Assembly (NCBI GenBank): GCA_947461335.1 | Contig: CANHLB010000005.1 | Location: forward strand, 1-22,387 | Origin: Burkholderiaceae bacterium | GTDB taxonomy: Bacteria > Pseudomonadota > Gammaproteobacteria > Burkholderiales > Burkholderiaceae | Direction of reading: 5' to 3' | Length of the DNA stretch: 22,387 nucleotides | In this document: one piece after another, positions 1 to 9,093 of the stretch | Layout: each line of letters begins with the position of its first letter | Position numbering within the stretch: position 1 is the stretch's first letter | Translations under genes and position numbers: made by a program | Notes under the pieces: model-generated | Database searches by the model: none | What the model was told of the DNA's origin: nothing | The model's input: the letters and a program-made list of their open reading frames with translations, nothing else

Positions 1-134
1 ACGACCCTAAAGTTCAGCATGGGCATCAGACTTTGACCACCAGCTATTACTTTTGCATTCACATTGCTTTGCAAATGTTGCAAAGCCTCCTCAAGAGAGT
101 AGGCACAAAAATAGTTGAATGGAGCTGGCTTCAT
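1..134 (-). CDS. FAD-binding subunit of a CoxM/xanthine dehydrogenase-family molybdenum hydroxylase (5' end only)
   Basis: Only the first 44 codons are inside the window; the gene runs off the left edge. The peptide starts MKPAPFNYFCAYSLEEAL and reaches the FAD-binding signature AGGQSLMPMLNFR, which is typical of the medium (FAD) subunit of CO dehydrogenase-type hydroxylases (CoxM, HcrB, HmfB, NdhF relatives). That subunit passes electrons between the 2Fe-2S subunit and a quinone or other acceptor. The ATG shares one base with the stop of the upstream gene (TGATG), and an AGGG sequence lies about 8 nt before it, so translation is probably coupled to the CoxG-crotonase gene. Genes for the Mo-binding and 2Fe-2S subunits are expected just outside the window. 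The family is clear; the substrate cannot be told from this piece. Confidence 0.88.
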   Translation of the reverse strand, partial: MKPAPFNYFCAYSLEEALQHLQSNVNAKVIAGGQSLMPMLNFRV

Positions 135-1618
135 CAATTACCCTGAAAACGCGGCTCACGTTTTTCAGCAAAAGCTTTGCGCCCTTCGTGATAATCATTA
201 CTTTTTCCAGCTGTAGCAATTAAGGCCTCAGCGAGCTCACTATCCAAGACTCCACGCCCCATAGCTACTCCATTGAGAATATATTTAGCGCCAGAAATAC
301 TTAGCGGGGCATTTGAAGCCAATAACTTAGCAAAAGAGCGTGCTGAAACCATCGGATCATCTGATAATTTCTGCTCTACCTTTTTCTTTTTACCTAAAAG
401 CTTTTGTAACCAGCTAACTTGACTATCTTGTTCTGAAGTACCAGACATGTGATCAATAAATCCCATTTTCAATGCCTCTGGTGCGGTAAAGCGTTGTGAG
501 CCAAATAAAATTTTCTTAGCTTGAACAAGGCCAACAAGATTTAGTAACTTCTGAGTACCCTTAACACCATAAATAATCGATAAACGTGCTGCAGGAATAC
601 CAAACTGAGAATGAGAGGCCGCATATCTAAAATCACAAGACATAGCTAAATGCGCGCCACCACCCAAACAAAAGCCACGAATCACAGCTATGGTTGGTTT
701 ACTGATGTTGGCAATAGCGTCGCAGCAGGCATCAACTGCTACCTCATAGTCCCAGACCTGCTTATCAGTTGCGCGAACTTTTCCAAATTCAGAGATATCT
801 GCACCAGCACTAAAGTCTTCTCCAGCGCCGGTCAAGATAACAGTCCGAACATTTGCGTCTTGCTCTAGGGCTCCTAATATTCCAGGAATCGCCTTCCACA
901 TACCCAAAGTCATAGCATTTTTTGTTTTAGGTCTATTGAATGTAACTACTGCAATATGATCAGAAATCCAAATCTTGATCTTGTCGTCAACCCATACATC
1001 CATTACGTCAGAATCGGTAGGTTCAAATAAATTCGCCGTGGTGCCAATACCATAACCAAGCTTGGCATCACCTAGGCTCGTAGATGCTGGCTGTCGATGA
1101 GTAGCAGAGGGTGCTGCTACCATTGCTTGCTTTTTATATTTTGCAAAATCAATGCCTTCAGCTGGTTTCATATCTAGGCCACCAACCGCCCTGCTAAAAC
1201 TCTCAAAAAAATCATCTGCATTCTTACGAGCAGTAGCATCTATGAGTCTTGAGCCTAATTGCGCAAGTTTTCCACCAACATTTGCTTTAACCGTGTAACG
1301 CAACAATGTAAGAGATTGATCTAATTCCTCTAACTCAACTTGAATTTCAGCCTTAGCAAATCCAGCCATTCCGCCTTGACCTTCACCTACCAAGGTATAG
1401 CTTGATGGAGCAATGATGTCTGATAAGGTGACATTGCCAAGAAAGCGGGCTTTAATTGGGCCGACCTTAGATACCACAACCGCAGAATAGGAAGTTTCAG
1501 ATAACTTTTGCAGATCTTCGCAACCAGGTATGCTTTTTTTCAATACCTCTGGGTTATTTAGGGCATCCCAAACCACACTTCTTGATGCGTCTAAACGCGC
1601 TTCACCCACCATATCCAT
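134..1618 (-). CDS. CoxG (SRPBCC) domain fused to a crotonase-fold (enoyl-CoA hydratase/isomerase-like) domain
   Basis: A 494-residue two-domain protein. Residues 1-147 match the CoxG/SRPBCC fold found with CO dehydrogenase-type hydroxylases (MDMVGEARLDA start, IPGCEDL at 30-36, GEGQGGMAGFAKA at 78-90, RKNADDFFESF at 131-141). Residues about 148-210 are a polar linker. Residues 211-494 are a crotonase domain with the oxyanion-hole segments AGADISEF (271-278) and GFCLGGGAH (315-323). The two glutamates that catalyse hydration in classical enoyl-CoA hydratase are replaced: His323 follows GGGA, and Ala343 lies in IPAARLS. A plain hydratase is therefore unlikely; hydrolysis, isomerisation or lactone opening of a CoA thioester is more plausible. 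A lysine-rich insertion (about 391-421, KKKK at 410-413) is unusual. The gene lies 28 nt after the thioesterase gene, with GGAG before the ATG, and overlaps the FAD-subunit gene by one base. Pairing CoxG and crotonase in one chain next to a Mo hydroxylase suggests that they act on one CoA-bound intermediate. Confidence 0.9.
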   Translation of the reverse strand: MDMVGEARLDASRSVVWDALNNPEVLKKSIPGCEDLQKLSETSYSAVVVSKVGPIKARFLGNVTLSDIIAPSSYTLVGEGQGGMAGFAKAEIQVELEELDQSLTLLRYTVKANVGGKLAQLGSRLIDATARKNADDFFESFSRAVGGLDMKPAEGIDFAKYKKQAMVAAPSATHRQPASTSLGDAKLGYGIGTTANLFEPTDSDVMDVWVDDKIKIWISDHIAVVTFNRPKTKNAMTLGMWKAIPGILGALEQDANVRTVILTGAGEDFSAGADISEFGKVRATDKQVWDYEVAVDACCDAIANISKPTIAVIRGFCLGGGAHLAMSCDFRYAASHSQFGIPAARLSIIYGVKGTQKLLNLVGLVQAKKILFGSQRFTAPEALKMGFIDHMSGTSEQDSQVSWLQKLLGKKKKVEQKLSDDPMVSARSFAKLLASNAPLSISGAKYILNGVAMGRGVLDSELAEALIATAGKSNDYHEGRKAFAEKREPRFQGN

Positions 1619-1646: not shown

Positions 1647-2093
1647 TTAATTTGCTTTTACAAGCCCTTGCAATACAGTCCGTACATTTTGCGGAATTGG
1701 GGTCGATTTATTGCTTTTACGATCAACGTATACATGCACAAAATGTCCCAAAGCAGAAGCAATGTCATCATCATTTTTAAAAATAGCGACTTCGTACTTG
1801 ACACTACTAGTTCCAAGATGTGTCACTTTCATTCCAACATGTATGAGGTCTGGAAAAACAATCGGTGAAAAATATTTACATTGAGTTTCTATGACTAAGC
1901 CAATGATCTCGCTTTTAAGCACATCTAAGACATTGTGCTCAATCAAATAACGGTTGACGGCAGTATCAAAAAATGAGTAATAGACGGCATTGTTGATGTG
2001 TCCATAAGCATCGTTATCCATCCACCGAGACTGAACGTCTTCGAATGCCACAAAATCAGCACGACTTGGTGGGGACAGTTTTTTATCACTCAT
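1647..2093 (-). CDS. Acyl-CoA thioesterase, 4-hydroxybenzoyl-CoA thioesterase/YbgC-like hotdog fold
   Basis: A 148-residue single-domain hotdog protein, the usual size for this family. The segment RWMDNDAYGHINNAVYYSFF carries the family signature, with Asp28 at the position of the catalytic aspartate of 4-hydroxybenzoyl-CoA and YbgC thioesterases and His32/Asn34 following. The C-terminal part has the expected strand pattern ending in GHFVHVYVDRKSNKSTPIP. Its ATG overlaps the stop of the alcohol dehydrogenase gene by 4 nt (ATGA), so the two are translationally coupled. In this operon it probably releases CoA from the pathway product or rescues stalled thioesters. The acyl group it hydrolyses cannot be predicted from the sequence. 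Cytoplasmic; no signal peptide. Confidence 0.9.
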   Translation of the reverse strand: MSDKKLSPPSRADFVAFEDVQSRWMDNDAYGHINNAVYYSFFDTAVNRYLIEHNVLDVLKSEIIGLVIETQCKYFSPIVFPDLIHVGMKVTHLGTSSVKYEVAIFKNDDDIASALGHFVHVYVDRKSNKSTPIPQNVRTVLQGLVKAN

Positions 2094-3238
2094 AAAGCCT
2101 CTTTATAAAGAAGTGCAGCATCACTTAAAGTAATTTCGCGAGGACTATTCATCAGAAGACGGGTTTGTAGCATGGCATCACTTGCGAGTTGCTCTATATC
2201 AGCCGATGTAATCCCAACATCTATCAGGCGATCTGGCAGGCCAAGCTCACCGGCTAAGCTACTGAGATACTCAGCCAATTGAGTTGCTTGCTCAATTGTT
2301 GAGCCTTGCAAACCAGGTTTAATAATTTGGCCAAGCTCTGCATACATAGCATGTGCTACTTCTAAATTGAAGCGCATCACAGGACCAAGCATCAAGGAGT
2401 TAGAAAGTCCATGTGGTACATGAAACCTAGCGCCAATGGGATAAGCTAGTGCATGAACGCCTGCTACGGGTGCATTCGTAAATGCCATGCCCGCAAGACA
2501 AGCCCCAAGCAACATATTTTCACGTGCATTAATATCATCACCACTATTCACTGCTTTATGTAGATTTCCAGCTAGCAGTCTCAGCGCCTCTTTAGCTAAA
2601 CAATCTGAAAGAGGATTCTTTAAGCGTTTAGTAGTGAAAGCTTCAATGGCATGAACCATGGCATCAATACCTGTTGCAGCCGTCACATGTGCTGGTAAAC
2701 CTAAAGTCAATTCAGCATCTAACAAAGCAACATCAGGCAATAGCTGTGGTGATACGACGCCTTTTTTCTCACTCTCACTCACTGTCACGATTGAAATCGT
2801 GGTTACTTCTGAACCAGTTCCAGCAGTTGTAGGAACCAATATGAGCGGTAGACGTGGACCTTTAGCCATTCCAACCCCATATATATCTGCAAGCTTTTCT
2901 TTACCTGGCGCAAGAAGTGCCACTAGTTTTGCGACATCCATTGAGCTGCCACCACCAAAGCCAACAATAAAATTCGCTTTACATTGCTGAGCAACTTTAA
3001 CAGCGCTATCAATGACAGATACTGGTGGGTCAGCTTGGACATCAGAAAATATTTCAAGTGCAATATCTAACTCTTTGAACTGTGGTAAAGCCTTATTAAG
3101 CAAGCCAGCAGATAAGACCCCTGGATCGGTAATGATTAAGGCAGACTTGCCGCCGCGCTCCTGAATTCTTTTTGCAAGATTTGCAGCTCCACCTCTTTCA
3201 ACAAGAATCGAGCGTGTAGAGTGAAAGTCAAATTGCAT
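2090..3238 (-). CDS. Iron-containing alcohol dehydrogenase (maleylacetate reductase-like family)
   Basis: A 382-residue NAD(P)H-dependent group III dehydrogenase of typical length. Nucleotide-binding GGGSSMD is at 95-101 and PTTAGTGSE at 136-144. All four metal ligands are present: Asp192 and His196 in GIDAMVHAIEAF, then His262 and His276 in the HALAYPIG and HVPHG segments, which predicts a divalent iron (or zinc) enzyme. The family interconverts alcohols and aldehydes or ketones, or reduces maleylacetate. A clear AGGAGA precedes the ATG, which lies 15 nt after the ligase stop, and the 3' end overlaps the thioesterase start. In an operon with a CoA ligase and a Mo hydroxylase it may act on an aldehyde or alcohol form of the substrate or on a semialdehyde intermediate; this is inference. 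No ring-cleavage dioxygenase is seen nearby, which argues against a classical maleylacetate role. Confidence 0.92.
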   Translation of the reverse strand: MQFDFHSTRSILVERGGAANLAKRIQERGGKSALIITDPGVLSAGLLNKALPQFKELDIALEIFSDVQADPPVSVIDSAVKVAQQCKANFIVGFGGGSSMDVAKLVALLAPGKEKLADIYGVGMAKGPRLPLILVPTTAGTGSEVTTISIVTVSESEKKGVVSPQLLPDVALLDAELTLGLPAHVTAATGIDAMVHAIEAFTTKRLKNPLSDCLAKEALRLLAGNLHKAVNSGDDINARENMLLGACLAGMAFTNAPVAGVHALAYPIGARFHVPHGLSNSLMLGPVMRFNLEVAHAMYAELGQIIKPGLQGSTIEQATQLAEYLSSLAGELGLPDRLIDVGITSADIEQLASDAMLQTRLLMNSPREITLSDAALLYKEAL

Positions 3239-3253
3239 ATCTTCTCCTGATGA

Positions 3254-4795
3254 CTAGATTTTTTCTTTGAGCTTAAAGCGCATGACTTTGCCAGAACCTG
3301 TTCGAGGTATCTCCTTAACTACATGAATAGCAGCCGGGACTTTATAAGATGAAAGCTGTGTCTTTGTAAAGTCAATCAAGGCCTCAGAATCAACTGAATG
3401 CCCTTCACGTAAAACAATAAATACCACCGGAATCTCACCTAAATGCTTGTGTTCAACCCCCACTGCCGCACAATCAAGCACTGCAGGATGTCGAAGCACG
3501 GCTTCTTCAACCTCGCCAGGTGCAATGTTTTGACCGCCTCTGATAATGAGTTCTTTAAGCCTACCGGTAATAGTGAGATAGCCGTTTAAATCTGCTTTTG
3601 CTAAATCTCCAGTACGGTACCAACCGTCTTTCAGTGCGGCTGCAGTTTCTGTGGGTTTATTGTGATATCCCACCATCACATTTGGGCCGCGAACAATGAG
3701 CTCACCCTCATACCCAGCATCAAGATCTTTTCCTGTAGCAGGATCCACAATGCGAACAGCAACGCCGATCACTGGAAGCCCACATGATCCTAGAGTTCTT
3801 CCGCCTGTTGTTGAGTTCATGGTTACCATTGTTGAGGTCTCGGTAATGCCATAACCATCTAATAATTGGATATCAAAGAATTCTTCAAAACCTTTATTCA
3901 AATCTGCAGGCAAGATTGCGCCGGCTGAAATGCAAAGACGCATGCCGTTAAGCTTAATAGCAGCATCTGCTTTAGCAGATTCCAAAATATAATGGAACAT
4001 AGTCGGCACACCAGGCAGAACGGTAAATTTTCCGGTCTTTAATAGCGTCAATACTTGAGTAGAGGAATACTTTTCAACAATGAACTCGCTGGCTCCGGCT
4101 GCCACTATTCCAAGCACAGAGAAATTCAAGGCATATGAATGAAAGAGCGGCAAGGGTGAAAGCACAACATCATTCTCATTCATGCCCGCTATAGGAATCC
4201 AGCATGCGGCTACCACCCAGAGCATTGAACGAACCGTTAATTGAACACCCTTGGCCTTTCCAGTTGTACCCGATGTGTACACGATGAAGGCAACGTCATC
4301 AATACTTGTACTTTCTTGCTCATCGCCTAAATTGCTATTATCTACAAGATAGTTAGAAAAATTTTCACATCCAGAAATCTCTTCATCATCTACGATGACA
4401 ATCTGAATGTCTGTTCCAATCTCAGATCGAATGCCATGGATGACATCTAGCCTGTCTTTGCTAGTAATCATTATTTTTGCGCCTGAATCAGTCATTCTGT
4501 AACTGACTTCGCCAGGAGCAGCATCATGAGAAATTGGAACGGCAACAAGACCAGTTCGCACAGTACCAAAACAAGCGAGCACCCAATTAACTGAATTCGG
4601 TAGATAAATAGCAACCTTATCGCCAGGGACAAAACCTTTGCTGCGAAGCTTTTTAGCTACATTCCTCGATTGACGATTTAACTCTTTGTAACTAGCTTCC
4701 TTATGACTATCCCAATAGGCGACCTTAGAGCCATATTGTTGCGCCCTTTCCTCAAGTAATTGAGCAAGTGGCTTGATTACATCCGTCTTGATCAT
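3254..4795 (-). CDS. AMP-dependent acyl-CoA synthetase (acid:CoA ligase), first gene of the catabolic operon
   Basis: Adenylate-forming ANL-superfamily enzyme of 513 residues that would activate a carboxylic acid to its CoA thioester through an acyl-AMP. Motifs from the ATG at 4795: phosphate loop YTSGTTGKAKG (173-183), GYGITETS (314-321), GWYRTGDL (391-398), the hinge region GRLKELIIRGGQN, and the catalytic C-terminal lysine in RTGSGKVMR (Lys503). An in-frame TTG lies two codons upstream, but AGGA 8 nt before the ATG favours the ATG. No signal or membrane segment. By position it catalyses the entry step of the pathway encoded downstream. Furoate-, benzoate- and medium-chain acyl-CoA ligases all share these motifs, so the substrate is open; a 2-furoyl-CoA synthetase (HmfD-like) role is one hypothesis. 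Confidence 0.93.
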   Translation of the reverse strand: MIKTDVIKPLAQLLEERAQQYGSKVAYWDSHKEASYKELNRQSRNVAKKLRSKGFVPGDKVAIYLPNSVNWVLACFGTVRTGLVAVPISHDAAPGEVSYRMTDSGAKIMITSKDRLDVIHGIRSEIGTDIQIVIVDDEEISGCENFSNYLVDNSNLGDEQESTSIDDVAFIVYTSGTTGKAKGVQLTVRSMLWVVAACWIPIAGMNENDVVLSPLPLFHSYALNFSVLGIVAAGASEFIVEKYSSTQVLTLLKTGKFTVLPGVPTMFHYILESAKADAAIKLNGMRLCISAGAILPADLNKGFEEFFDIQLLDGYGITETSTMVTMNSTTGGRTLGSCGLPVIGVAVRIVDPATGKDLDAGYEGELIVRGPNVMVGYHNKPTETAAALKDGWYRTGDLAKADLNGYLTITGRLKELIIRGGQNIAPGEVEEAVLRHPAVLDCAAVGVEHKHLGEIPVVFIVLREGHSVDSEALIDFTKTQLSSYKVPAAIHVVKEIPRTGSGKVMRFKLKEKI

Positions 4796-4875
4796 TGCCA
4801 ATTTCCTATATTTTGAAAATTAAAGATCCTTTACTGCAAGCAATAGCCTAAAACAGTTAAAGAAGCCTCAAAGTA

Positions 4876-5050: not shown

Positions 5051-5111
5051 TAGTATTCATTTAGTGGCACCACAACCCCAACAAAGAATCCCGAGACAAA
5101 GGAGTTTTTAC

Positions 5112-6332
5112 ATGTTCAAGAAAAAATTACTGGCATCCGTCAGCATTCTGGCGATGTCTTCAGCGCTTATATCGCAGCCTGCTACAGCTCAAATTTCTAA
5201 CGATAAAGTCCGAATTGGTGTATTAACTGACATGAGCGGTCAGTTTTCACATGAATCTGGCGCAGGTTCTGTCACTGCAGTCAGAATGGCTATCGATGAT
5301 TTTGGTGGGAAAGTGAATGGAAAGCCTATTGAGCTTATTTATGCAGACCACCAAAATAAACCTGACATTGGAGCTACCAAAGCCCGAGAATGGTATGACA
5401 GTGGCATTGACATGATTGCTGGATTGATTAACTCAGGTGTTGCCCTCTCCGTGACTAATGTGGCTAAAGAAAAAAATAAGATTGCCATTATTAATGGCTC
5501 GGGTAGCTCAAGACTTACAAATGAAGGTTGCACACCAGTCAGTATTCACTATGCATACGATACCTATGCGCTAGCTACTGGTACAACTAAATACCTCATC
5601 AAAGAGAAAAAATTAGATACTTGGTATTTCTTAACTGCTGACTACGCATTCGGTCATGCACTCGAAGCTGATGCAACAACAAATATCAAAGCACTAGGCG
5701 GGACAGTTATTGGATCCACTCGTTACCCAATGGATACTAACGATCACTCATCCTTTCTTTTAAAAGCTCAAGCTTCTAAAGCTCAAGTAGTTGCGCTGGC
5801 AGGTTCCGGACAAGGCTTTATTAATGCAGTTAGATCAGCACAAGAATTTGGTATTCCAAAAGGCGGTCAAACTATTGCAGGTCTTTTAGTTTGGGATACT
5901 GACGTAGATGCACTTGGATTACAAAAAGCGCAGGGAATGATTATGACCTCTGGCTTTTATTGGGACAGAACTCCTGAAACCCGTGCCTGGTCAAAACGCT
6001 TTAAAGAACTAATGGGGCGCATGCCACATATGGGTGATGCAGGCGATTATTCCTCAACGATGCAGTACCTGAAAGCCATCAAAGCTGCCGGTACAGATGA
6101 AACTGGTGCAGTAATGGCTAAGTTGAAATCAACCCCAATCAACGACTTCTTCGCAACGAATGGACGTATTCGTGAAGATGGTCGCATGGTGCATGATATG
6201 TATGTTTATCAAGTGAAGACTCCTGCGGAATCTAAATACCCTTGGGACTATTTGACGCTGAAGGAAACTATTCCTGCTGCCCAAGCTTATCGCCCTCTCA
6301 GCGAGAGCTCTTGTTACTTAGTTAAAAAATAA
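5112..6332 (+). CDS. ABC-transporter periplasmic substrate-binding protein, LivK/aromatic-acid type
   Basis: A 406-residue type I periplasmic binding protein. The start at 5112 is chosen because GGAG lies 7 nt upstream and the protein then opens with a proper signal peptide (MFKKKLLASV, hydrophobic core, ATA-Q cleavage after about residue 26); a reading frame open to 5064 adds only a non-signal-like extension. The mature part starts with DKVRIGVLTDMSGQF, typical of branched-chain amino acid-type receptors. The segments SIHYAYDTYALATGT and FLTADYAFGHALE are characteristic of the subgroup often found near aromatic-acid catabolic genes. No permease or ATPase gene is adjacent, so it either uses a transporter encoded elsewhere or its partners lie beyond the left edge. 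It is transcribed away from the ligase operon, faces a shared control region, and has its own terminator. It probably captures the pathway substrate. Confidence 0.9.
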   Translation: MFKKKLLASVSILAMSSALISQPATAQISNDKVRIGVLTDMSGQFSHESGAGSVTAVRMAIDDFGGKVNGKPIELIYADHQNKPDIGATKAREWYDSGIDMIAGLINSGVALSVTNVAKEKNKIAIINGSGSSRLTNEGCTPVSIHYAYDTYALATGTTKYLIKEKKLDTWYFLTADYAFGHALEADATTNIKALGGTVIGSTRYPMDTNDHSSFLLKAQASKAQVVALAGSGQGFINAVRSAQEFGIPKGGQTIAGLLVWDTDVDALGLQKAQGMIMTSGFYWDRTPETRAWSKRFKELMGRMPHMGDAGDYSSTMQYLKAIKAAGTDETGAVMAKLKSTPINDFFATNGRIREDGRMVHDMYVYQVKTPAESKYPWDYLTLKETIPAAQAYRPLSESSCYLVKK

Positions 6333-6378: not shown

Positions 6379-6406
6379 GACAATTTACCGGTGAATACAA
6401 TAACAG
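6377..6406 (+). promoter_or_regulatory. Candidate promoter of the tandem HxlR regulator, overlapping the terminator tail
   Basis: A perfect -35 TTGACA (6377-6382) begins in the T-run of the preceding terminator. Possible -10 boxes are TAACAG at 6401-6406 (18-bp spacer) or TACAAT at 6396-6401 (13 bp, short). Either would start transcription downstream of the GTG at 6391, which favours the ATG at 6424 as the true start of the regulator. Confidence 0.45.
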
Positions 6407-6423
6407 AAAACATTGAACCCATC

Positions 6424-7371
6424 ATGGCAGATGCTTGCTCTGTCAGGAGAACTGTCAACATTATTGGTGACGGCTGGTCATTCATGATTTTGCGGGAATG
6501 CTATTTTGGCGTCCGCCGCTTTCAAGACTTTCAGGAAATTCTAAACATTCCTCGTGGTACCCTAACGACGCGTTTAAATAGCCTAGTCTCAGAAAATATC
6601 CTTCAGAAAAAATCCTCTGATCCGAGTAAAAAGCGTTTGGAATATCGACTGACAAAACAAGGCATTGATCTATATAAAGTCATGATTGCATTAATGGGCT
6701 ATGGTGATAAATGGATAGAAGCTTCTCCAAAACAGCCGCTCAAACTCAAACATAAAACCTGCAACCATGAATCTCATCCTTTTGTTGGATGCCCTCACTG
6801 CAGACAAGAAATTATTGCTTCAGAAGTAACTTATAGAAATGGTCCGGGTTTTGGATTTGAGCCCGCATACCCAGGCCCCAAACTTCGCAAGTCGGCAGAT
6901 CCTGTACTGCTTGAAAAGAGACGGCCTAGTTCGGTAGCAAGAGCACTGAGAACCATAGGAGATCAATGGGGATTTATGGTTCTCAGAGAGGCTTTCTTCA
7001 AAGTCAGAAGGTTTGATCAAATACAAAATAAGCTAGGAATTGCACCCAATACTTTAGCTAACAGATTGAATCATTTCTTAAACGAGGGAATCTTTCAAAA
7101 GGTACAGTATCAAAGCAACCCCGATAGATTCGAATACCGCCTAACACCTAAAGGGAGAGCAATTTTTTCTAGCTTTATGGCCATGCTAGCGTGGGGTGAT
7201 AAATGGTTAGCAAAGGATGGTCCACCCCTAATTCTGACTCACCAGAACTGTGGCCATGACTTTACCCCATTAGTGATGTGCGACTTTTGCAAAAATGAAA
7301 TACATGCGAAAGATATGGCATACGACACTACTTACAGAGATCCAAGAGCATCTATAAAGCACTCCAACTAG
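6424..7371 (+). CDS. Tandem HxlR-family transcriptional regulator with two zinc-ribbon-like motifs
   Basis: A DNA-binding protein made of two copies of an HxlR/MarR-like winged helix. In numbering from the GTG at 6391, copy 1 covers about 16-110 (CSVRRTVNIIGDGWSFMILRE) and copy 2 about 180-275 (SVARALRTIGDQWGFMVLRE). Each copy is followed by the same C-x-H-x7-C-x2-C pattern: Cys124, His126, Cys134, Cys137, then Cys287, His289, Cys297, Cys300, which suggests a metal site per half. HxlR proteins normally have one such domain and dimerise; here the dimer appears to be covalent. I place the start at ATG 6424 (315 residues) because the likely promoter lies over the upstream GTG and a start a few residues before the conserved Cys is usual in the family; GTG 6391 (326 residues) remains possible. 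Neither has a clear ribosome site. It probably controls the neighbouring divergent catabolic operon. Confidence 0.85.
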   Translation: MADACSVRRTVNIIGDGWSFMILRECYFGVRRFQDFQEILNIPRGTLTTRLNSLVSENILQKKSSDPSKKRLEYRLTKQGIDLYKVMIALMGYGDKWIEASPKQPLKLKHKTCNHESHPFVGCPHCRQEIIASEVTYRNGPGFGFEPAYPGPKLRKSADPVLLEKRRPSSVARALRTIGDQWGFMVLREAFFKVRRFDQIQNKLGIAPNTLANRLNHFLNEGIFQKVQYQSNPDRFEYRLTPKGRAIFSSFMAMLAWGDKWLAKDGPPLILTHQNCGHDFTPLVMCDFCKNEIHAKDMAYDTTYRDPRASIKHSN

Positions 7372-7474: not shown

Positions 7475-8269
7475 ATGGATCTTCCTTTATTAAGATTTGC
7501 TCTAGAGTTTCCGGACGTCGGTCTTCGAATAGCGCTATCTTTCGGAGTGCTATCTGTCTGTTTGATCACTTTCTGGATTTTTCAGAAACTGTTCCCCAAC
7601 GTACTTTTTGGTGAAGACTCTGAATACGCCGGCTATATCTATAACGCGATGGGTGTTGTATTTAGCCTCGTCTTTGCCTTCGTCACAGTATTGGTTTGGC
7701 AAAACTATAACGTGGTGAGTGATGCCATTGCTAAAGAGGCCAGTACTCTTAATAGTATGTATCGACTCTTTTCCGCCTTTCCACCAGAAGTTGAAAAAAA
7801 AGGTAGGGATGCCCTCAGAACTTATACAAAAACAGTTGTAGAGGAAGAGTGGCCGCTTCTAAGTAAAGATAAATTTAGTATTAAGGCATATGAAGACTTA
7901 TTAAAAATTGATGACATCGTCATTAATCTCCAGCCACAAAACCAAGGTCAGTCCAATGCACATCAGCTAATGCTTCGTTTAGCAATCGAGGCTAACGAGT
8001 TACGACGAAGCCGAGTCTACAATGCGCACTTTGCGCTAGCCCCTCCTGCGTGGCTAGGCCTCATTAGCAGCTCACTTATTTTTCTATTCTTCGCATGTCT
8101 TTTTAAGATGCAATCAGTACGTACTCATCTGATTTTAATTTTCTTTTTAGGCCTTACGATTGTTGGGGTTCTCTATTTCATGGTGATATACATTCATCCA
8201 TTCTTAGGTCCAATGGCTCTAGGTCCGGGCCCAATCGCAAATTTACTCAAAATAGCATGGGTTTATTAA
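7475..8269 (+). CDS. DUF4239 (bestrophin-like) integral membrane protein
   Basis: A 264-residue inner-membrane protein with predicted membrane segments near 19-37, 54-76, 193-211 and 217-240 and a soluble helical region of about 115 residues between the second and third. The ending HPFLGPMALGPGPI matches the hallmark of DUF4239 proteins (a PF-G followed by a short strand after the last helix), and EANELRRSRV before the third helix also fits. The family is distantly related to bestrophin channels, but I know of no established function. It stands alone, 103 nt after the regulator gene, and faces a second four-helix protein transcribed toward it. There is no clear ribosome site before the ATG, so the start is only moderately certain. 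Confidence 0.8.
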   Translation: MDLPLLRFALEFPDVGLRIALSFGVLSVCLITFWIFQKLFPNVLFGEDSEYAGYIYNAMGVVFSLVFAFVTVLVWQNYNVVSDAIAKEASTLNSMYRLFSAFPPEVEKKGRDALRTYTKTVVEEEWPLLSKDKFSIKAYEDLLKIDDIVINLQPQNQGQSNAHQLMLRLAIEANELRRSRVYNAHFALAPPAWLGLISSSLIFLFFACLFKMQSVRTHLILIFFLGLTIVGVLYFMVIYIHPFLGPMALGPGPIANLLKIAWVY

Positions 8270-8286
8270 GGCTATGATGAATATTC

Positions 8287-9093
8287 TTAAGGTGAAGCGC
8301 TAAATGTCTCCTTAAGCAATAACAACTCTCGATTGATTTCTTCATAAGGCATCAAGATATTAGGCATCTCTAAAGAGAGAATGACATAGAGCGAGAGGCC
8401 AATGAGAGCTATATATAGACCAGCCAACAACCAATCATTCTCATTTTTGACCGCCATTGTATAGCCGATCAAAAAAGCACCTACGCATAAAAGAAAGAAT
8501 AGAAACCTCATCAATAGGCTAGGTGGATGCGCTTTTTGACTAATAATTCCAGTGAAAAATACGGTAGATAAGTTTTTGACCTGCGGCATGAGTATTTCAT
8601 TTGCAAATGTTTGGGTTTCTGGAGGAGCATTGAGAGCTGCCCGTGATGCTTGCTCATAAATCTTGCGAGTGAGTTCTAAAACTTGATTAGCACCTTTATC
8701 GACTTCCAGCCGAGTCTTTGGATCTTTAACAATAGTTAAACGCAAATTAAGTAAATCATTCAGTGAATTTTTTAGAGTAGCCTGGTCACTGGGAGCTAAG
8801 TATTTCAGTGACTCATATACTTGCCCTAGGGTCTGCGCTTGCACTCGAATCGATTCTTCTCGAACGCTATAGCGATTAGCTGAAGTTGAGAATGTAAACC
8901 CAAGTACTAAAGCTGAAAGACCAAAAATAGCAGTGGCCAAGGAGTCTCTGACTATTACCTGACTACCGCTCTGCTTTTTTAAACGGTAGTGGCCAAAAAA
9001 CCAACCCATTGCCGTAAATACAAAAATGGCAGCAGCAAAAAATAAGGGTACGTATTGAATGAGATCTAGATGTTGGTAAATGATTGAGTTCAT
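8287..9093 (-). CDS. Four-helix membrane protein, distant DUF4239/bestrophin-like relative
   Basis: A 268-residue protein with predicted membrane segments near 13-33, 51-70, 193-214 and 221-241, and a central soluble part of about 120 residues. After the second helix the sequence LGFTFSTSANRYSVREESI resembles a widespread bacterial group (LGFTFS...RY/R) usually annotated as bestrophin-like or uncharacterised membrane protein. It has the same topology as the protein at 7475-8269 but lacks its PFxG ending, so the two are not close paralogues. The two genes converge with 17 nt between their stops and no strong terminator there. Function unknown; a channel-like role is a guess. Confidence 0.72.
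   Translation of the reverse strand: MNSIIYQHLDLIQYVPLFFAAAIFVFTAMGWFFGHYRLKKQSGSQVIVRDSLATAIFGLSALVLGFTFSTSANRYSVREESIRVQAQTLGQVYESLKYLAPSDQATLKNSLNDLLNLRLTIVKDPKTRLEVDKGANQVLELTRKIYEQASRAALNAPPETQTFANEILMPQVKNLSTVFFTGIISQKAHPPSLLMRFLFFLLCVGAFLIGYTMAVKNENDWLLAGLYIALIGLSLYVILSLEMPNILMPYEEINRELLLLKETFSASP

Follow-up and report, generated by a model that had tools for sequence, protein, structure and literature searches.

The window, the whole stretch of 22,387 nucleotides that was analysed, carries on its minus strand a CoxG-crotonase fusion gene (134..1618), a single reading frame of 494 aa with the stop TGA at 136..134. The plus frame over bases 134..1618 contains many stops, and the coding strand is the minus strand. 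A CoxG (SRPBCC) domain occupies residues 1-147 (1178..1618, minus), followed by a variable linker at residues 148-208 (995..1177, minus) and a crotonase-fold domain at residues 209-494 (137..994, minus). Pfam assigned COXG (PF06240) to residues 5-145 at 113.4 bits (cut-off 22.2) and ECH_1 (PF00378) to residues 220-418 at 152.4 bits (cut-off 27), both scores being far above chance level; the best NCBIfam match of residues 209-493 was PRK06127, with 274 bits under its cut-off of 291. Thus the two domains in one uninterrupted frame that the sequence-only reading had described were recovered by profile searches (CoxG 5-145, crotonase 209-493). The coupled CoxM-type gene that it placed behind them was confirmed as well, since the fusion stop overlaps the coxM ATG in the sequence TGATG (136..132) and residues 1-45 of a CoxM-like FAD subunit are encoded at 1..134 (minus) before the contig edge cuts the gene.

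Gene content was compared over 39 loci that we chose from 78, comprising 16 fused, 18 separate and five undecided loci, with counts made at half of the scripted score thresholds and a tblastn limit of 1e-10. The fused loci were taken from the genome_contigs records, and the contig of one (L034) holds only CoxG residues 113-147. Outside the comparison stand the other half of that gene (L051), a locus with a broken crotonase (L072) and the remaining loci, taken as more distant relatives. In L072 (9700-10850), CoxG is intact and the crotonase frame after it has about 90 codons, its middle being missing. The identical loci L062 and L063 are counted twice among the 18 separate loci; here, in Rhizobium sp. 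R634 (NZ_LOKW01000023.1), the separate-gene cluster lies twice on one contig over 20,741 bases, identical throughout.

The operon in the window is ordered ligase, iron alcohol dehydrogenase, thioesterase, fusion and coxM. The 4HBT-type thioesterase (1647..2093, minus; PF13279/PF03061) lies directly upstream of the fusion in 13/16 fused loci, as judged by position, and is preceded by the iron-containing alcohol dehydrogenase (2090..3238, minus; PF00465; 10/16 fused and 15/18 separate loci) and an AMP-forming acyl-CoA ligase (3254..4801, minus; PF00501; 14/16 and 16/18). Divergent from these, a branched-chain-type ABC substrate-binding protein (5064..6332, plus; PF13458) was found in seven of the fused and 15 of the separate loci, and a two-domain HxlR regulator (6391..7371, plus; PF01638 in two stretches) in 11 and five, respectively. 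Further along the window lie two convergent genes for bestrophin-like membrane proteins (7475-8269, plus; 8287-9093, minus), the second scoring under the Pfam cut-off.

Contig C148 of the same assembly encodes CoxM residues 210-291, CoxS, an MBL protein, CoxL, an SDR and the N-terminal part of an aldehyde dehydrogenase, and judging from this gene content it probably carries the other half of the window operon. The whole series is present on one strand in the congeneric genome G498 (ligase, alcohol dehydrogenase, thioesterase, fusion, CoxM, CoxS, MBL, CoxL, SDR and aldehyde dehydrogenase), with ABC transporter genes divergent to the operon. CoxM, CoxS, CoxL, MBL and SDR were each found in 16/16 fused loci, so that CoxG is linked to CoxMSL-type genes in all of them; in the separate-gene loci, some of which are cut by contig ends, CoxM was found in 18/18 and CoxS, CoxL, MBL and SDR in 17/18 each. 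The cluster is present in alpha-, beta- and gammaproteobacteria. In a further congeneric genome, G471, the cluster contains the crotonase alone, CoxG being absent from the 14 kb examined and matched five times elsewhere in the genome, indicating that a CoxG-crotonase tether is not essential. The G471 crotonase (L122:5345-6244) has 299 aa and an N-terminal extension.

The fusion is genuine but patchily spread. Both domains were present in 118 of the 120 hits listed, out of 1284 database hits at E <= 0.001, the two without CoxG being P0029 and P0094, and fusion holders among those listed include, by name, Cupriavidus, Paraburkholderia, Variovorax and Pseudorhodoferax. One of the database proteins, P0104 (630 aa), contains a thioesterase, CoxG and crotonase; its junction resembles a one-base frame change relative to L039 and could reflect either an error or a further fusion event. 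A first relatives search gave no full-length match in the other 100 genomes among the rows listed; a wider set of 121 genomes of the genus added G498, so that the fusion was found in 2/121. Four of 399 genomes of the order matched at E <= 1e-70, and the fusion was found in two of the 399, namely the window genome (G000) and G166, where the fusion protein has 463 aa and both domains were verified with Pfam; in G199 and G222 the crotonase is present, with no CoxG in the 4 kb around it. Among plasmids, 36 records were retrieved, none reaching 80% query coverage; in the 25 listed, similarity is confined to the crotonase part.

An assembly or sequencing artefact could be suspected, as the window assembly is fragmented (219 contigs, 78.6% complete), but we regard it as next to impossible. 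The fusion recurs in many assemblies with differing linker sequences, and the artefact is refuted by the copy in G498, which lies on a single contig of 2.03 Mb and is 85% identical over all 494 residues without a stop. A stop overlooked near residues 150-210, or a frameshift there, which the sequence-only reading had named as grounds for refuting the fusion, is excluded by this copy together with the 118 of 120 listed hits and the 16 loci. The same reading knew of no described enzyme with this architecture. This holds for the literature, where our searches found no description of a CoxG-crotonase fusion or of its pathway, no characterised example and no experimental work on any member of the family; as an architecture it is already recorded in JGI protein names ('enoyl-CoA hydratase/carnithine racemase/carbon monoxide dehydrogenase subunit G').

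In an alignment of 28 sequences (A1), both domains are conserved and the linker (about 148-208) varies freely. The first structure model had a mean pLDDT of 73, with the crotonase part weaker and the linker mostly at very low confidence; fold matches from this model confirm the superfamily only, and the CoxG head shows the SRPBCC fold of the solved CoxG. No hydrophobic segment was found in the window linker, where the highest 19-residue mean hydropathy was 0.29, and the corresponding maximum was 0.62-1.22 in 16/16 fused linkers. For the separate loci, 10/18 CoxG tails reach 2.48-2.88, and the other 8/18 have tails of 2-36 residues without a hydrophobic segment. The C-terminal membrane tail of the rhizobial CoxG, also referred to in the title of PDB entry 8uds, is absent from the window CoxG. 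The fusion is the only PF06240 match in the window genome, whose assembly is incomplete as stated above. A 798-aa 'CoxG' frame in L080 was set aside, as we read it as a chance long ORF ending in a normal CoxG.

The Glu pair at positions E109 and E129 of E. coli PaaF is catalytic in enoyl-CoA hydratases. In the fusion both sites are occupied by other residues, H323 and A343, each in 27/28 sequences of A1. An ordinary enoyl-CoA hydratase (EC 4.2.1.17) was rejected on this basis: the crotonase fold is present, but since both glutamates are missing, the domain is probably not an enoyl-CoA hydratase. The pocket positions are kept in A1 (G320 28/28, Y350 28/28, H323 27/28) and in the separate single-domain crotonases (18/18, 18/18 and 17/18). 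Fusion residue Y350 aligns with Y140 of the methylmalonyl-CoA decarboxylase ScpB (E. coli b2919), which we take to be an important residue of that enzyme; a literature search on decarboxylase, crotonase and Tyr140 found nothing naming Tyr140. The window crotonase is 27% identical to ScpB, which has E where the window has H323, and it reached 117 bits on the methylmalonyl-CoA decarboxylase family profile, under the cut-off of 257.

AYxCSFR is the active-site motif of form I CO dehydrogenase. CoxL of the cluster has GPYRGVGR instead, in 33/33 rows of other loci and also in the window genome, and form I CO dehydrogenase was therefore rejected as the partner. The CoxL of locus L037 (Cupriavidus numazuensis LMG 26411) gave 490 bits vs 991 on TIGR02416, and its best PDB match was quinoline 2-oxidoreductase. 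The curated succinate-semialdehyde dehydrogenase cut-off of 828 was passed by the aldehyde dehydrogenases of L037 (852.4) and L035 (840.3), and the rhizobial one of L117 passed the subfamily cut-off (715 vs 646) and missed the equivalog (813.7 vs 828). Overall, a dehydrogenase of this type was found in 11/16 fused and 9/18 separate loci, two of the matches being weak (L039, 42% identity; L071, 33%). The MBL protein resembles AttM-type lactonases, with 137 against a cut-off of 390 and well under every lactonase cut-off.

Taken together, we propose, with a probability of about 0.6, that the CoxG head serves the molybdenum hydroxylase and is tethered to the crotonase in the CoA-dependent degradation of a small acid. 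What the sequences show directly is the two domains, the gene cluster, the loci with separate genes, the loss of both hydratase glutamates and the lack of a transmembrane tail; from these we infer the hydroxylase partnership, the pathway with its step order and the benefit of tethering. The substrate would be a small carboxylic acid, probably cyclic, that is taken up and activated to its CoA ester, which the CoxMSL-type molybdenum hydroxylase would oxidise. The lactonase-like protein may help ring opening, and succinate semialdehyde and succinate are the predicted end products. The CoxG head would act for the hydroxylase as CoxG does for CO dehydrogenase, by quinone or membrane contact, the crotonase domain would carry out oxyanion-hole chemistry other than hydration on a CoA-bound product, and the flexible linker would hold the two together. 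Several observations count against this proposal: the G471 cluster without CoxG, the wide spacing of the two genes in 10/18 separate loci, the incomplete occurrence of succinate-semialdehyde-type dehydrogenases, the low lactonase scores of the MBL protein, and reports that CoxG is dispensable for CO use in O. carboxidovorans and for electron transfer to quinones in Sulfolobus. The suggestion made from the sequence at the outset, that the fusion may tie a CoA-intermediate step to the Mo hydroxylase or deliver its electron acceptor, is plausible and agrees with the gene set, with CoxM, CoxS and CoxL in every fused locus.

As the 18 separate loci hold the same cluster, the pathway most likely existed before the two genes were joined. 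The separate loci are found in Rhizobiaceae, Brucellaceae, Rhodobacter-like and other Hyphomicrobiales and in one gammaproteobacterium, and in 10/18 (Rhizobiaceae, Brucellaceae) CoxG and crotonase lie kilobases apart. In Silicimonas (L044-L046) the two genes share a frame with only one stop and about 10 codons between them, which fits the idea of a neutral fusion, in which a stop was lost between adjacent operon genes and the domains work as before, the tether having no special role. The trees point the same way. To account for the fused rows, the crotonase tree (40 rows, leaving out undecided ones) requires at least two changes, an initial CoxL tree (34 rows) two, and a larger CoxL tree (38 rows) three. 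On this larger tree, grouping the 19 fused rows into one clade was rejected (p-AU 3.6e-7); placements there are unsure owing to the long branches L116, L122, L053 and L069, the last being weakly placed. With several changes and one fused clade rejected, joining or splitting looks easy, and the rarity of the fusion (two genomes each in the genus and in the order) is also in keeping with neutrality. Against this, in the supported CoxL clade that includes the window (18 rows) 17 rows are fused and none has separate genes, the remaining row being G471 without CoxG, and both domains are strongly conserved with only the linker varying freely. A neutral origin of the tether is accordingly possible, and we consider it the less probable explanation.

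Two other readings concern what the crotonase does. It could be a catalytically dead oligomer scaffold that multimerises CoxG heads, as the loss of both hydratase glutamates might suggest, but the pocket is kept not only in A1 (G320, Y350 and H323) but also in the separate single-domain crotonases, which have no CoxG head to carry, and such a scaffold is unlikely. A soluble hub, in which CoxG carries quinone for the hydroxylase and the crotonase attached to it removes CO2 from a substituted malonyl-CoA formed once the lactone is opened, is doubtful too, if marginally less so. Its putative route, constructed from the gene set, would use most of the cluster genes: 3-furoyl-CoA would be 2-hydroxylated and the lactone opened to 2-(2-oxoethyl)malonyl-CoA, followed by decarboxylation (Y350 acting as Y140 in ScpB), thioester hydrolysis to succinate semialdehyde and oxidation to succinate. 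A literature search covering 3-furoic acid among other substrates found nothing naming 3-furoic acid. A CoxG head that serves the hydroxylase and is tethered to an active crotonase remains our preferred reading.

CoxG fusions are not unique to the CoxG-crotonase gene, as CoxG is also fused to the C-terminus of CoxL in another cluster of the same genus. This was verified with Pfam in G498 (C1 near 831780; L129:3239-6277) and G471 (C13; L130:2747-5704); in addition, an open frame of 1025 aa in G166 (C68:260166) and frames of 998-1024 aa in six more same-genus genomes were recorded as frames only, without a Pfam check. The G498 gene is surrounded by an AraC regulator, CoA ligase, crotonase and substrate-binding protein, and the G471 gene by CoxM- and CoxS-like frames recognised by eye. 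In the CoxL-CoxG cluster, both hydratase glutamates are retained by the crotonase, as seen in two aligned rows. The occurrence of CoxG with different partners in CoA-linked molybdenum-hydroxylase clusters supports a functional connection between CoxG and the hydroxylase. A third arrangement was observed in L131 (G471:C35), where CoxG, a crotonase-like gene, CoxL and CoxM are accompanied by a UbiD-like decarboxylase and a TctC receptor.

Among described pathways, the HmfABCDE route for 2-furoyl-CoA in Cupriavidus basilensis HMF14, as outlined in PMC6678421, likewise combines a CoA ligase with a molybdenum hydroxylase acting on the CoA ester, and the gene order of the CoxL-CoxG cluster resembles hmfABCDE, an AraC gene lying close by. 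Unlike the Hmf set as given there, the fusion cluster contains an MBL lactonase-like protein, SDR, thioesterase, alcohol dehydrogenase and succinate-semialdehyde-type dehydrogenase; the Hmf route outlined there ends in 2-oxoglutarate, and its lactone-opening step has no assigned gene (PMC6678421). The fusion cluster seems to mark an uncharacterised CoA-dependent molybdenum-hydroxylase pathway. The same gene set is annotated on the Rhizobium gallicum plasmid pRgalR602a (NZ_CP006878.1), where CoxG and crotonase are separate and 5 kb apart, and the ten relatives measured have the hydrophobic CoxG tail.

The role ascribed to CoxG is that of an accessory protein delivering a molybdenum enzyme to the membrane or to quinone. 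In O. carboxidovorans, it is proposed in the account in PMC4240915 to recruit CO dehydrogenase to the membrane, and coxG mutants retained CO use with slower growth. The Sulfolobus CoxG was reported, in the portion of PMC11962113 concerned with it, to anchor a dehydrogenase to the membrane and not to be required for electron transfer to quinones, and a quinone-binding CoxG is cited in PMC13240472. The M. smegmatis CoxG of aerobic CO dehydrogenase (PDB 8uds) is titled 'minus lipid anchoring C-terminus', whereas the window CoxG continues into the crotonase instead. A CoxG that lacks an evident membrane tail and is physically linked to an enzyme from its own cluster offers a simple system for distinguishing a mobile carrier from an anchor.
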